Of a stretch of DNA of 64,000 nucleotides, positions 4,492-48,919 are shown in pieces. The position numbers and the translations under genes are program-made. Within the stretch, counting starts at the first letter, position 1. Every line of letters starts with the position of its first letter. The notes beneath the pieces were generated by a model, which was given only the letters and a program-made list of their open reading frames with translations, was not told where the DNA came from and ran no database searches. The DNA comes from Planctomycetota bacterium (GTDB taxonomy: Bacteria; Planctomycetota; UBA8742; UBA2392): positions 806,001-870,000 of the forward strand of contig JABTUE010000001.1 of NCBI GenBank assembly GCA_015075515.1, read 5' to 3'.

Positions 4492-5973
4492 ATGCGCGTT
4501 GTTGCCCCGGCCCTGTGTGCGGTTCTGGCGTTGGCGCTTGTGCCGTGCCGGCCTTGCGCCGAGCCGGCGGAGCCGCAACTGCAATGGGCGCCCGAGGTCA
4601 ACGCGCTGCTGCAAACCTGCCGTGACGCGGCGCTGTACTCGATTGCCGGCCACGCCTGGCTGGTAACCGCCGCCGCCGACGGCGCGGCACTGTGGCGGCT
4701 GGACAACGGCAAGGCCCACGCCGTGACAACCCCCGACGGAAAGCCCGTCACCGGCCGCGCGATTGCGCCTTGTTTTGACTTCGGCAGCGCCCTGGTCGCC
4801 GTCAGTGACACGCCCGACGGCCCGCGCCGCCTGCTGCAATTACAGGCCGACGGCGCCGTTATCCTGCGCGACAGCGAAGGCCGGCCCGCCGTCATCGAGG
4901 CCGGCGCCGAGATCCGCGACAGCCGCTATGGCCGGCACTCGGTGGTCAGCATCCTCAAGCCCGAGACCCCGGCCCGGCACTTTGTGGCGCGCGAGGGCGT
5001 GCTGGCGCCGGTGCTGGGCACCGACGGCAAGCCGCTGCTGGGCGACAACCTGTACTGGCGCGCCGCGCCCGACGGCGCTCTGTACGTCTCCACGGCCGCC
5101 GACGACGACCCCTGCGCCTATCGCCTGGTCGGCAACGCCGTGATCCGCAACCCCGAACCGCCCCGCCCCCAGGCGCTCAAGGACACGCGGCTTGTGATCA
5201 CGCGCCTGCCCGTGCCCGGCGCGACACTGGTCGCCGCCATGGAACAACTCACTGCCGCCACACACCTGTGGCTGGCCAAAGACGGCACCGCCGTGCCGGT
5301 GCAGACCGCCGATGGCCCGTTGCCGGCCTTTGACGACTACTATCTGCTCGAAGTCGGCGGCGTGCCCTGCATTGCCTGCGGCACTGCCGGCGAGCAGCCG
5401 CGCCTGGCGCTGTATGTCTTTGAAGACGGCAAGGCCCGTCTGCTGGGCGACGCCGACGTGGCCGCGCACTGGGTCAAGAATGCCGGCATTGGTCTGCCGC
5501 CGGCGCTGGCCGTTGAGGACAGGCGCCGGAACCAGACCTGGTACGTGCCCGAAAGCGGCAAGCTGGTGCCGGTCAGGCTGACAGCGGGCGAAGTATTCCG
5601 GCCGTCGCCGCGGGCGGCCTTTGTGTGGCCGGCTGAAACCGGCTGCTGCTTTGATCTGATGGACCCCGGCGCGACATTGGCGCGCCTGGAGGGCAGCAGG
5701 CTGCACTGGCTGAAGTTCGGCACCGCCCCGGTGCGCAGCAGCGCGCCGTTGACCGTTTGCGGCAAGGACCTGTTTCTGGTGGCCGCCGCGCAAGACGGCA
5801 AGGGTAAGGTGCTGTGCCGAGTCGGGCCCGGCGGCGCGGTGGTGGCCGTAGACGGCCCGGAAAATCTGGCGCGGAGCGCGGCAATCCAGATTGCCGCCGG
5901 GCGCGGGGCGCTGTGGGTGCTTACACTGGCGGAAACCGCCAGGTGGCAGGCCGGATACCGCAACATCGGGTAG
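4492..5973 (+). CDS. Secreted protein of unknown function, possible beta-propeller
   Basis: A 493-residue protein with signal peptide MRVVAPALCAVLALALVPCRPCA. The mature part lacks membrane helices. It contains repeated short beta-hairpin-like units with a DGK/DGxP turn after a hydrophobic strand (LWRLDNGKAHAV, VLGTDGKPLLGD, YVFEDGKARLLGD, WYVPESGKLVPV), which suggests an all-beta, perhaps propeller, fold. No family was recognised. Nine extra upstream codons were rejected: GGAG sits 6 nt before the ATG at 4492. A weak hairpin lies 27 nt after the stop. Confidence 0.75.
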   Translation: MRVVAPALCAVLALALVPCRPCAEPAEPQLQWAPEVNALLQTCRDAALYSIAGHAWLVTAAADGAALWRLDNGKAHAVTTPDGKPVTGRAIAPCFDFGSALVAVSDTPDGPRRLLQLQADGAVILRDSEGRPAVIEAGAEIRDSRYGRHSVVSILKPETPARHFVAREGVLAPVLGTDGKPLLGDNLYWRAAPDGALYVSTAADDDPCAYRLVGNAVIRNPEPPRPQALKDTRLVITRLPVPGATLVAAMEQLTAATHLWLAKDGTAVPVQTADGPLPAFDDYYLLEVGGVPCIACGTAGEQPRLALYVFEDGKARLLGDADVAAHWVKNAGIGLPPALAVEDRRRNQTWYVPESGKLVPVRLTAGEVFRPSPRAAFVWPAETGCCFDLMDPGATLARLEGSRLHWLKFGTAPVRSSAPLTVCGKDLFLVAAAQDGKGKVLCRVGPGGAVVAVDGPENLARSAAIQIAAGRGALWVLTLAETARWQAGYRNIG

Positions 5974-10670: not shown

Positions 10671-11588
10671 CTACGGTGCCGCGGCCCTGCGCCGGCGCCA
10701 AAGAGCCGCCAGCGCCAGAACAGCCGCCGCCGGCGGCCACGGGGCGCCGGGCACGGCCGCGCAGCGACCCTCGTTGTCGTCTTCGTTGCTGTCGGTGTTG
10801 TCCACGCGCGCAAGCAGCGTGTCTGTCGGCGCCGTAACCGCCCAGGCCGCGCTGCCCGCAAAACCCGCGGCGCCGCGCGCGTTGACGCGCAGCGTGCGCT
10901 TGCCGCTGCCCGACAGCGCCACGCTGACGGCATCGGGCATGGCGGCCTGCGTGATGGTGGCCAGAATCGTGGCCGAGCCACCGGTGGTTTCGACCAGTTC
11001 CATGCGGTTGAGGTTCGTGCCCGCGCAGTCCAGCCGGATGAACACCGTGCGCGGCACGGGGCCGAGGTCAACCTGAAACCCGGCGGCCACCACCGCGCCG
11101 GGCGTGGTCGTGGCGTTGAAAAACGCCATGCGCCCCACGGCAAAACGCAGGCCCGTGGCCGACAGCACCAGTTGTTCCTGGGCCGGCAGTTCCAGTGTGC
11201 CGGCGCTGGAGGTCACGTTGCCGGAAAAGCTGGAACCGGCGCCGGCGCTTTCAATTTCCAGCACGAACTCGCGCCGCCCCGCGTAACTGCCCGAAAGCGT
11301 CGCGTTGGCCGTGCCCGCGCCCGGCACCACGGATTCGTCAAAGCCCGGCGGGTTCAGCGCGCCGCTGCCCGCCACGGCGTCAAGGTCCATCAGCCGCACG
11401 ATGATGCCCTGGCTCGAGGGCGTGCTCACGCTGGCTGCCAGGCTGAAGCTGACCGCCGCCGGCCCGAAGTCGGCGCGGATCAGATACGTCAGGCGGCGGT
11501 TGCCCGGAACCGAACCCGAAACCGCAAAACTGTCCTGGGCCGCAAGCAGGGGCGCAAACAATACCAGCGCGATCAGCAGCGTTCTCAT
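10671..11588 (-). CDS. Secreted protein with MYXO-CTERM-like C-terminal sorting signal
   Basis: A 305-residue protein with signal peptide MRTLLIALVLFAPLLAA, a beta-rich Ser/Thr/Gly body with internal jelly-roll-like strands (FVLEIESAGAGSSFSGNV, FIRLDCAGTNLNRMELV), a short acidic stretch (DNTDSNEDDNE), then GRCAAVPGAP, a hydrophobic helix and WRRRR near the end. This Cys-helix-Arg-cluster tail is the tripartite layout of MYXO-CTERM/GlyGly-CTERM sorting signals and closely matches the tail of the 1213-residue protein at 45.3 kb. ATG at 11588 follows AAGGGG; upstream codons are discarded because they run into the SRP RNA. Function of the body is unknown. Confidence 0.8.
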   Translation of the reverse strand: MRTLLIALVLFAPLLAAQDSFAVSGSVPGNRRLTYLIRADFGPAAVSFSLAASVSTPSSQGIIVRLMDLDAVAGSGALNPPGFDESVVPGAGTANATLSGSYAGRREFVLEIESAGAGSSFSGNVTSSAGTLELPAQEQLVLSATGLRFAVGRMAFFNATTTPGAVVAAGFQVDLGPVPRTVFIRLDCAGTNLNRMELVETTGGSATILATITQAAMPDAVSVALSGSGKRTLRVNARGAAGFAGSAAWAVTAPTDTLLARVDNTDSNEDDNEGRCAAVPGAPWPPAAAVLALAALWRRRRAAAP

Positions 11589-45277: not shown

Positions 45278-48200
45278 TTACTGCCTGCGCCGGCGGCGCC
45301 AGGCCGCCAGCAGCACCGGCAGCACAACCGCCGCGGGCGCCGCGCCGATGCCGGCCGCGCAGCCGCCCTTGCCGCCGCCTCCGCCGCCGCCCACGCCGAT
45401 CACCGCCACGTTGCTGTAGCTGAAGGTCTGGGTCAGCGTCTTGGGGCCCAGGTTGTTGGTCGTCAGCACAATCGGCAGGTTCTGCCCGCTGCCGGCCGGA
45501 ACCGTCAGGCCCGTGATCTGCGTGCCCGCGGCGTTGACCGTGGCCACGCCGGGGCAGTTCACGCCGCCGATCGTCAGCGTCACCGGCAGGCCGAAGCCTG
45601 AACCCGTGATCGTGATTGCCGCCCCGCCGCCGGGCAGACTGGCCGTGGGCGTGATGCCGGTCAGGGCATAGGTCACCACGCGCAGGCCCGCGGCGTTGGG
45701 CGGCACGGTGCCGATCGCCACCGTGCCGGCCGTGATGGCCTGCACGTCCGTGGCCGCGGCAATCCCCGCGTTGAACACCTCGGCCGGGCTGCCGCCGGCT
45801 GACGCCAGCACGTCGTACACCACCCAGAAGTCCACGCTGGTGTTCATGGCAATCGTCTGGTTGGCCGCAAACACGCAGCTCACAACCGGCGTCGCCCCGG
45901 CGCCGGCGAACACCTGGGTGTCACCGGCGTCAAAGCTGCCGTTGCCGTCGTCGCGCCAGACCTGCACGCCCGTGGCGCTGTTCAGGTTGCCCGCCCAGTT
46001 GCCGCCGCCGCTGGTGCTCAAGGTAAAGCCCGAGATCACAAAGTCGGCGTTGCTGGAGGTCATGCGGAACTGGCCCACCAGCACCGTGAAGTCCGCCCCG
46101 GTCTGCTCGCGCGTGACCGTGGACGGGTTTTGCGGCCCGGCGTTCACGGTCAGAATCGGCACGTCAATCTGCAGCGCGCTGCTGGCCGCCGTGGGCGTGC
46201 CCGCCACGGAGCCGCCGCTGGGCGCGCCCGCGGTCACGCCCGTCAGCGCCACCCGCAACTGCTGGCCGGGGCTGGCCGTGCCCGCCAGCTTGGCCGCCAG
46301 GTAGTAACGCCGGGTCTGGTTCACCGTAAACGTGCCCGCGGCGCCGGTCAGGTTGGCCGTGTAGGTGCCGTTGGCCGCGTTGAAGCCGGTGCCCGCGGCC
46401 GCCGTGGCCAGAAGGTCCGTCGCCGGGCCGTCCCAGGTGCCGTTGCCGTTGTCGGCATACAGCGCCAGGAAGTTCAGACCGGCCTGCCCGTCCATGCTGC
46501 CCGATTCGGTGAACACCATGACCGTGGCCGTGAACGAGTCATTGCGCGAGGCCAGTGTCACCTCGCACACGATGTGGCCGTCGTTGTTGGGGCCCTGGCT
46601 GTTGTTGTTCACCGTGGTGAAGGCCACCGGCCCGATCAGGGTCACGCTGAGCGTCGCCGGGTTGATGGTCAGGGCCGGGGCCGCGCCCGAGGTGGGCGTG
46701 CCGGTGACACTGCCGCCGCCGCCGGTGGTGGCGTTGACCGTGGTCAGTTCGGCCACCACGGTCTGGCCGGCCGTGGCCACACCCGACAGCTTGCAGACCA
46801 GAAAGAAGCGCCGGGTGGTGGAGACCGCCCAGGCGCCGTTGGCCAGTGTGGCGGTGTAGGTGCCGTTGGGCGCGTTGAAGCTGGTGCCGGCCGCGGCCGT
46901 GGCCAGGGTGTCCGTGCCCGGCCCGTCAAACACGCCGTTGGTGTTGGTGTCTTCGTACAGGGCCAGAAAGTTCAGACCGGCCTGCTCGTCGGCGGTGCCC
47001 GACGCGGTGAACACCAGGTCAGTCACGTTCCAGGCCGCCTGGGCCGTGGCCAGGGTGATGTCCAGAATCACCAGACCGTTGCCGCCGGTGCCCTGGGCGT
47101 CGTTGTCCACCATGGTGGTCGCCGCCGGCCCGTTGCGCGTCACCGCCAGGTTGTTGGGCGGCGTGACGGCGCCGGTCACGGCCACGTTGACGCTGGCGGT
47201 GCCGGCCACGTTGGTCACGTTGCCGTTGAAGCTGCCCAGCGTCGCGCCGGTCAGGCGCACCCAGATGGTGGCGTTGAGTGTGGGGGTCTGGTTGATGTTC
47301 AGGCTGGTGCTGTAGCTGCCGGTCTGGCTGAGGCTGATTTCAAAGTTGGCCGGCGCGTTGACCACGGTGTTGGAGACCAGCCCGGCGCCGGTCAGGTCAT
47401 AGCTCTGGGGTGTGCCGGGCGTGCCCACGCTGGTGGAACCCAGGTTGAGGCTGGTGGGGTTGGCGGTGTACAGCCAGGTGTTGCCGCTGACGGCAACGTT
47501 GGCCGAGGCGCTGCCGCTGACGTGGGTGATGTTGCCTGAAACGATCATGGCGCTGGTGCCGGTCAGGCGCGCCCAGATCGTGAGGTTGGTGTAGCTGGGG
47601 AAAGTGGAATGCTGGATGGACTGGGCGTAACCGCTGGACTGGCTGAAGCTGACCTCAACGCCGGTGGGCGCGGTAATGGTGGTGGCGCCGGAAAGCGCTG
47701 AGCCCGAAATTGTGTAGCTGACGGCGCTGCCGGGTGTGCCCTGGGGCGTACTGCCCAGGTTGATCGCGCCGGTTGAGGGCGTGATCGTGGGCGGCGTGAC
47801 CGTGCCGGTGACGGCGACGTTGACGGTAGTGGCGCCGGAGCTGGCGTGGGTGATGTTGCCGCTGACCGTGCCGGCGGTGGTGCCGATCAGGCGCGCGTAC
47901 ACCGGCGTGTTGGTGTAGGTGGGCCAGGTGTTGATCGTGATGGCGTTGGTAAAGCCGGTGGAGGAACTGAAGCTGACCTCAACGCCGGCGGGCGCGGTGA
48001 TCGTGGTGGGGCCGGTCAGCGCCGAGCCCGAAACCGTGTAGCTGACGGCGCTGCCGGGCGTGCCCTGGGGCGTGCTGCCCAGGTTCAGCGAACTGGTCGA
48101 GGTACTGATTGTGGGGCCCGTCACCGTGCCGCTGACCGCCACGTTGCGGTTGGCCGCACCCGAGCTTGCGTGGACGATGTTACCACTGATGGTTCCCATG

Positions 48201-48919
48201 CTCGATCCGATCAGTCGGGCATAAACCGGGGTTGGGCCCCAGGTGCCGGTCGTGTTGATGGTCAGCGAGTTCGTGTAGCCGCTGGCGGCGGAAAAGCTGA
48301 TCTCCACGCCGGTCGGAGCTGTGATGGTGGTTGCAGCCGTTGTGGTGGTACCGCTGACGGTGTAGCTGACGGCGGTGCCGGGCGTACCAACTGTTGTTGT
48401 GCCGAGGTTCAGCGACGTTACGGATGTAGTGATGGACGCGCCCAAACGTGTGGCTACGACAAAGTTTCCTGGTACCGCGCCACCAACGTGATTCAGCGTG
48501 GACCACAGCATCTGGCCCTGTGCCAGGTTTGCCGTAGAGGTGCCCGTCCAGGTGATGGACTGCCCGATCGCCGTAGGTATCCAGTGGTTGGACGTTACCG
48601 GTGTGAATGTCGGGCCATTATGTCCGCCGCTGCTGCTGGAGATGCCAGTCCAGTTACCAACGGGAAAACCCGAGGTGTGCGTGTAGTTGGTAAGCGGAGA
48701 AGATGCCGAGGCCGCATCACCGAAAATGAACCAGCCCCAACCTTGGCCTGACGCCCAAGAATTGTCGTTGTTATCAAGAGTAAGCGTAAACGTGTATGTG
48801 TAAGGACTGGCCGATCCCGTAACGGAATACTCAAGCTTCAGGGGCACGGCGGACAGCGACGTGGCGCCGAGAAGCAGACCGAACGCCAAAAAAACGTTAA
48901 GTGCGTGACGTGTTCCCAT
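45278..48919 (-). CDS. Large repetitive surface protein with IPT/TIG domain and C-terminal sorting signal
   Basis: A 1213-residue protein with signal peptide (ALNVFLAFGLLLGATSLSA). Four repeats of about 100 residues share NLGSTPQGTPGSAVSYTVSG-like openings (from about residue 165), then two repeats of about 150 residues share AGLNFLALYEDTNTNG/LATAAAGTSFNAPNGTYTA, then a related third unit. An IPT/TIG-like domain is near residue 1110 (ITPTASLPGGGAAITITGSGFG). The tail is Gly-rich, then GGCAAGIGAAP, a hydrophobic helix and WRRRRRQ. That end is near-identical in plan to the 10.7 kb protein. GGAG is 9 nt before the ATG. It has its own promoter. Function unknown; probably adhesive or structural. 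Confidence 0.85.
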   Translation of the reverse strand: MGTRHALNVFLAFGLLLGATSLSAVPLKLEYSVTGSASPYTYTFTLTLDNNDNSWASGQGWGWFIFGDAASASSPLTNYTHTSGFPVGNWTGISSSSGGHNGPTFTPVTSNHWIPTAIGQSITWTGTSTANLAQGQMLWSTLNHVGGAVPGNFVVATRLGASITTSVTSLNLGTTTVGTPGTAVSYTVSGTTTTAATTITAPTGVEISFSAASGYTNSLTINTTGTWGPTPVYARLIGSSMGTISGNIVHASSGAANRNVAVSGTVTGPTISTSTSSLNLGSTPQGTPGSAVSYTVSGSALTGPTTITAPAGVEVSFSSSTGFTNAITINTWPTYTNTPVYARLIGTTAGTVSGNITHASSGATTVNVAVTGTVTPPTITPSTGAINLGSTPQGTPGSAVSYTISGSALSGATTITAPTGVEVSFSQSSGYAQSIQHSTFPSYTNLTIWARLTGTSAMIVSGNITHVSGSASANVAVSGNTWLYTANPTSLNLGSTSVGTPGTPQSYDLTGAGLVSNTVVNAPANFEISLSQTGSYSTSLNINQTPTLNATIWVRLTGATLGSFNGNVTNVAGTASVNVAVTGAVTPPNNLAVTRNGPAATTMVDNDAQGTGGNGLVILDITLATAQAAWNVTDLVFTASGTADEQAGLNFLALYEDTNTNGVFDGPGTDTLATAAAGTSFNAPNGTYTATLANGAWAVSTTRRFFLVCKLSGVATAGQTVVAELTTVNATTGGGGSVTGTPTSGAAPALTINPATLSVTLIGPVAFTTVNNNSQGPNNDGHIVCEVTLASRNDSFTATVMVFTESGSMDGQAGLNFLALYADNGNGTWDGPATDLLATAAAGTGFNAANGTYTANLTGAAGTFTVNQTRRYYLAAKLAGTASPGQQLRVALTGVTAGAPSGGSVAGTPTAASSALQIDVPILTVNAGPQNPSTVTREQTGADFTVLVGQFRMTSSNADFVISGFTLSTSGGGNWAGNLNSATGVQVWRDDGNGSFDAGDTQVFAGAGATPVVSCVFAANQTIAMNTSVDFWVVYDVLASAGGSPAEVFNAGIAAATDVQAITAGTVAIGTVPPNAAGLRVVTYALTGITPTASLPGGGAAITITGSGFGLPVTLTIGGVNCPGVATVNAAGTQITGLTVPAGSGQNLPIVLTTNNLGPKTLTQTFSYSNVAVIGVGGGGGGGKGGCAAGIGAAPAAVVLPVLLAAWRRRRRQ

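Follow-up and report, generated by a model that had tools for sequence, protein, structure and literature searches.

Our analyses indicate that a tripartite C-terminal tail, i.e. a Cys-containing motif, a hydrophobic helix and an Arg cluster, recurs genome-wide on secreted proteins in one Planctomycetota family. It is probably a sorting signal of the MYXO-CTERM class, with which myxobacteria anchor proteins at their surface, and is putatively processed by a CPBP protease, most likely one of the orthogroup that we designate B. The tail was first noticed on two proteins encoded in a 64,000-nt stretch of DNA from Planctomycetota bacterium (assembly GCA_015075515.1, contig JABTUE010000001.1, positions 806,001–870,000 of the forward strand), hereafter the window, in which the relevant features are:

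10671..11588, minus strand: secreted tagged protein 1, 305 aa, with a body of unknown family (ATG start, signal peptide, tail)
11535..11588, minus strand: N-terminal signal peptide of protein 1, MRTLLIALVLFAPLLAAQ (sequence and hydrophobicity score)
10674..10769, minus strand: C-terminal tag of protein 1, GRC-AAVPGAPWPPAAAVLALAALW-RRRRAAAP (model scores of the cut tail; genome profile match)
45278..48919, minus strand: secreted tagged protein 2, 1213 aa, with a repetitive body of Ig-like type (ORF, domain search, signal peptide)
48848..48919, minus strand: N-terminal signal peptide of protein 2, MGTRHALNVFLAFGLLLGATSLSA (sequence and hydrophobicity score)
45281..45367, minus strand: C-terminal tag of protein 2, GGC-AAGIGAAPAAVVLPVLLAAW-RRRRRQ (model score of the cut tail; genome profile match)

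Protein 1 ends in GRCAAVPGAPWPPAAAVLALAALWRRRRAAAP and protein 2 in GGCAAGIGAAPAAVVLPVLLAAWRRRRRQ, each directly before the stop codon, and the invariant Cys is encoded at 10761–10763 and 45359–45361, respectively. In both tails a Gly/Arg-Cys is followed by a hydrophobic stretch of 20–23 residues and then by RRRR. Exactly these two of the 307 ORFs in the window end in the pattern of GC, hydrophobic stretch and RRR, while order-5 Markov sequences give it in 5 of 24,045 ORFs, i.e. about 0.06 expected in the window. Protein 1 has no Pfam match above cut-off, and its body shows no similarity to that of protein 2. Both are real ORFs with signal peptides, and the sequence-only reading, which had described nearly the same tail on two unrelated bodies, is borne out, as is its remark that the window encodes no processing protease (we find no CPBP-like protein there). 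Both proteins have tagged relatives in the sister species G047: a weak homologue of protein 1 (L296, 26% identity over 214 aa) and a closer one of protein 2 (L312, 62% over 996 aa). Elsewhere in the source genome, a 171-aa ORF (L174, G000:C1:594500-596500) is paralogous to the C-terminal portion of protein 2 but degenerate; DNA identity is 89% over 1 kb, and the tag is exactly preserved.

We then scanned the ORF C-termini of the source genome (G000) with a profile built from its own tails (E<=1e-3), a check that the sequence-only reading had proposed. The profile, which matches the tags of proteins 1 and 2 with E-values of 3e-9 and 2.3e-10, respectively, recovers ∼28 tagged proteins, of which 26 clear tails are listed. 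The outcome named in advance as contradicting the reading, a genome devoid of further tagged proteins, was therefore not seen. The Synergist_CTERM model, built independently of these tails, gives 18 matches in the same genome, with four above its cut-off, and none over the cut-off in 14 control genomes. All 26 listed tails lie at ORF C-termini and contain both the Cys and an Arg or basic cluster, 17–22 residues apart; GGC is present in 24 and an Ala two residues past the Cys in 21. The signature is (G)GGC-x-A, helix and RRRR, and its motif, preceded by a long run of Gly, takes the form (G)nGGC-[AV]-A-[GA]. This revises the motif first proposed, CAAxxGA/helix/WRRRR: its Cys and Arg cluster are general, but CAAxxGA occurs in only 3/26 tails, being partly a coincidence of the two window proteins, and is ruled out as the signature, and the Trp before the Arg cluster occurs in 8/26. 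Signal peptides are present on nearly all carriers (the exceptions are the fragment L174, L187 and L197). The bodies include subtilase, matrixin, amidase with golvesin domain, GSDH (sugar dehydrogenase) and, in many cases, PKD/Ig/fn3 and beta-helix types, so judged from its domains the cargo is of surface type.

In 17 parsed orthologue pairs between the source genome and the same-genus genome G047, mean identity is ∼75% for the bodies and ∼44% for the stretch from Cys to Arg; none of the 17 pairs has lost the Cys or the basic cluster. Retention of Cys and Arg while the helix diverges is the pattern of a recognition signal rather than of an incidental Cys. A plain stop-transfer anchor, whose helix stays in the inner membrane and whose Cys is incidental, would also look like a hydrophobic helix followed by Arg. 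However, the ubiquity of the Cys at a narrow distance from the Arg cluster, its retention between orthologues, and a Gly-rich-Cys signature that is family-restricted and matches curated Cys-tag models make such an ordinary tail anchor improbable. The earlier claim, i.e. a dedicated sorting tag in three parts whose Cys is invariant, is supported by this conservation together with the number of carriers, their signal peptides, and the family-wide presence and model scores described below.

At the level of the family, the tag is present in all 16 genomes covered by a whole-class survey, with 3–28 matches each. In a phylum sample of 199 genomes, each of the 10 drawn members of the family has it, as do 2 of the 189 other genomes, with a single match in each, one of which (L062) proved spurious on inspection. 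The sister-family genome G166 has divergent tails (e.g. GGCALNGSDSLAAWVMLILVLALASRRRR, and also GGCALN..RRRR). An isolated but convincing tag (GGGGGCGLGATSTLTFLLLFLTWRRRRLGD, followed by the stop) terminates a 1300-aa ORF in G174, a planctomycete of another family (L201, G174:C100:1-16000, tag at 5773); the 16 kb that we read at this locus contain no CPBP gene.

We next compared the tag with known sorting systems. The tail of protein 1, when cut from its body, scores 21.5 bits with the MYXO-CTERM model TIGR03901 (cut-off 20) and 18.2 bits with the GC_trans_RRR model TIGR03382 (cut-off 15.85); the cut tail of protein 2 scores 16.6 bits with TIGR03382 and does not reach the TIGR03901 cut-off. 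At whole length, neither protein reaches the cut-off of TIGR03901, TIGR03382 or TIGR04564. Across the genome, TIGR03901 matches 23 of 25 tails at E<=1. Because cut tails exceed the MYXO-CTERM, GC_trans_RRR or Synergist-CTERM cut-offs, the tag belongs, as far as profile matches can tell, with Cys signals processed by CPBP proteases, i.e. in the Cys-containing MYXO-CTERM class but outside Myxococcota; the resemblance to MYXO-CTERM suggested earlier is thereby upheld. MYXO-CTERM has been reported as specific to myxobacteria (PMC11980579), but the relatives that carry both the tag and the protease discussed below are Planctomycetota MAGs, and the restriction to Myxococcota does not hold for them.

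The likeness to individual systems is only partial. As in the MYXO-CTERM (TIGR03901, TIGR03382)/MrtX-MrtC-MrtP system, dozens of proteins of surface type in one genome start with a signal peptide and end in a Cys motif, a helix and an Arg cluster, and the genome encodes a CPBP protease; several of the cut tails also exceed the curated cut-offs. By contrast, the host is a planctomycete, the Cys motif follows a long Gly run, and no CPBP protein of the genome reaches the MrtX, MrtC or MrtP cut-off. The GGGCxAG motif of the Synergist-CTERM (TIGR04564)/MrtS system is shared, and four proteins of the genome itself exceed its cut-off, but most tails fall below it. JDVT-CTERM (NF033191) likewise has a Cys signature, but its protease MrtJ pairs with one neighbouring target (PMC11980579), whereas in the present case a single enzyme would act on dozens of scattered proteins. 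GlyGly-CTERM shares the Gly-rich signature, helix and Arg tail. This likeness, together with weak matches of the GlyGly_CTERM model to 5/25 tails and of the PEP_CTERM model to 6/25, and PEP-CTERM-like tails elsewhere in the phylum (G002), could point to a GlyGly-CTERM signal with rhombosortase or a PEP-CTERM-like signal with exosortase. However, GlyGly-CTERM signatures never contain Cys and are served by a serine (rhomboid) protease (PMC3237569), while Cys is present in all tails here, and many more of the tails are matched, and matched better, by the models for MYXO-CTERM and Synergist-CTERM; judged from the tail sequences, we consider either of these two assignments very improbable.

If the tag is of the MYXO-CTERM class, a CPBP protease would be expected to process it. 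The source genome encodes six CPBP (Rce1-like) proteases, which fall in six orthogroups within the family (A–F). The best myxosortase fit among them, and a good candidate for the cutter of the tag on the sequence comparisons below, is the orthogroup B member L021:

G000:C2:384649-385380, minus strand: L021, CPBP protease of orthogroup B (PF02517)

Orthogroup B is present in 15 of the 16 family genomes and in the sister-family genome G166 (146 bits); elsewhere in the phylum sample it has no close match (next best 87 bits). Among ∼85,000 species genomes scanned, close matches (E<=2e-27) are found only in 14 Planctomycetota MAGs. The catalytic motifs EExxxR/H/HxxxN are intact, and 18 orthogroup B sequences all share E164, E165, R169, H197, H229 and N233. 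All nine members tested match MrtS (best 1.4e-12), MrtJ and Mrt_core, and some also match MrtZ, MrtC, MrtP and MrtX. L021 itself lies below every curated Mrt cut-off (i.e. MrtX, C, P, S, J, A, Z and Mrt_core): its best NCBIfam match is MrtJ with 45.4 bits against a cut-off of 75, and it scores ∼31 bits against 130 for MrtS and 29 against 100 for Mrt_core; the other members give best E-values of similar magnitude. A search with an AlphaFold model of orthogroup B (pLDDT 80) returned no significant solved structure (top match SpdC, E 0.63), and a sequence search of solved structures gave no match. The locus is conserved (tadA, B, membrane protein, MEMO, acpS and carB) and consists of housekeeping genes, with no tagged proteins in the neighbourhood. 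This is expected if one enzyme serves many scattered targets.

The sequence-only reading had also suggested looking for a protease whose presence tracks the tag across genomes. Orthogroup B does so, but within one clade only. Two tagged genomes have no orthogroup B match in their assemblies: G022, with at least 16 tags (94% complete), and G200, with one tag (54% complete). Co-occurrence within a single clade would also fit other clade-specific genes and cannot alone single out orthogroup B, so the matching phylogenetic profiles are suggestive.

An alternative is that the same sorting tag is processed by another CPBP protease, i.e. one of orthogroup A (L022, MroQ/MrtJ-like) or orthogroup E (L024, MrtA-like). 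Orthogroup A is as clade-restricted as B: in the phylum sample, 9/10 family genomes carry it, with matches elsewhere of only ∼80 bits in G166 and G085, and its members match MrtJ. They are, however, closer to MroQ than to the Mrt core (Mrt_core matches 2/9). Orthogroup E is also present in 9/10 family genomes and is the best match to the archaeomyxosortase MrtA (1.6e-18), but ∼19 planctomycetes that lack the tag have it at >120 bits, and it deviates from the EE and HxxxN motifs, which disfavours it as the partner. We regard processing by A or E as unlikely, and orthogroup B as the preferred candidate.

Specifically, L024 (G000:C1:1121277) has VEFFFRG instead of EExxxRG and lacks the HxxxN spacing. 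The remaining orthogroups were set aside: C (MORN + CPBP) and D each occur in just 5/10 family genomes, and F, besides G166, occurs in five genomes that do not belong to the tagged families, three of them at >150 bits. The CPBP protease L019 (G000:C1:344082), found in half of the drawn family genomes, has a MORN-repeat-like N-terminal domain.

Taking the preferred reading, i.e. a Cys tag cut by orthogroup B, we propose that (i) tagged proteins would be exported via their signal peptide; (ii) the C-terminal helix would hold the protein in the inner membrane, so that the Arg cluster lies on its inner and Gly-Gly-Cys on its outer side; (iii) the invariant Cys would then probably be lipidated; and (iv) a CPBP (Rce1/myxosortase-type) intramembrane glutamic protease, most likely the lineage-specific L021 orthogroup, would cut next to the Cys and remove the helix and Arg cluster, leaving a lipid-anchored surface protein. 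The lipidation step is suggested by analogy with Myxococcus xanthus MrtX, for which Cys-dependent cleavage of MYXO-CTERM has been shown and Cys lipidation proposed but not shown (PMC11980579).

More tentatively, and with somewhat less than even confidence, this could be a separately evolved, family-wide Planctomycetota Cys-tag system with its own undescribed myxosortase (orthogroup B), in which C-[AV]-A-[GA] after a polyglycine spacer would be a bacterial counterpart of the eukaryotic CaaX box. A planctomycete member may already figure in the 2024 paper that defined myxosortases. More generally, a genome-wide tag of the MYXO-CTERM class in a planctomycete family, with a distinct candidate protease, would (i) extend the known range of CPBP-mediated surface anchoring; (ii) offer a new route to annotating the planctomycete surface proteome; and (iii) provide an independent enzyme–tag pair with which to ask whether Cys lipidation comes before cleavage.

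Two further observations concern tagged loci of the source genome. At L200 (G000:C1, ∼361388), the start of a tag, GGGGCAAGAP, runs into another frame that ends in PAALAAWRRRLQ and a stop; the gene is apparently split by a frameshift, whether real or an assembly error. L184 and L185 (G000:C1, 1148557 and 908714) are tagged paralogues with bodies 85% identical and identical tags, and both have tagged orthologues in G047.
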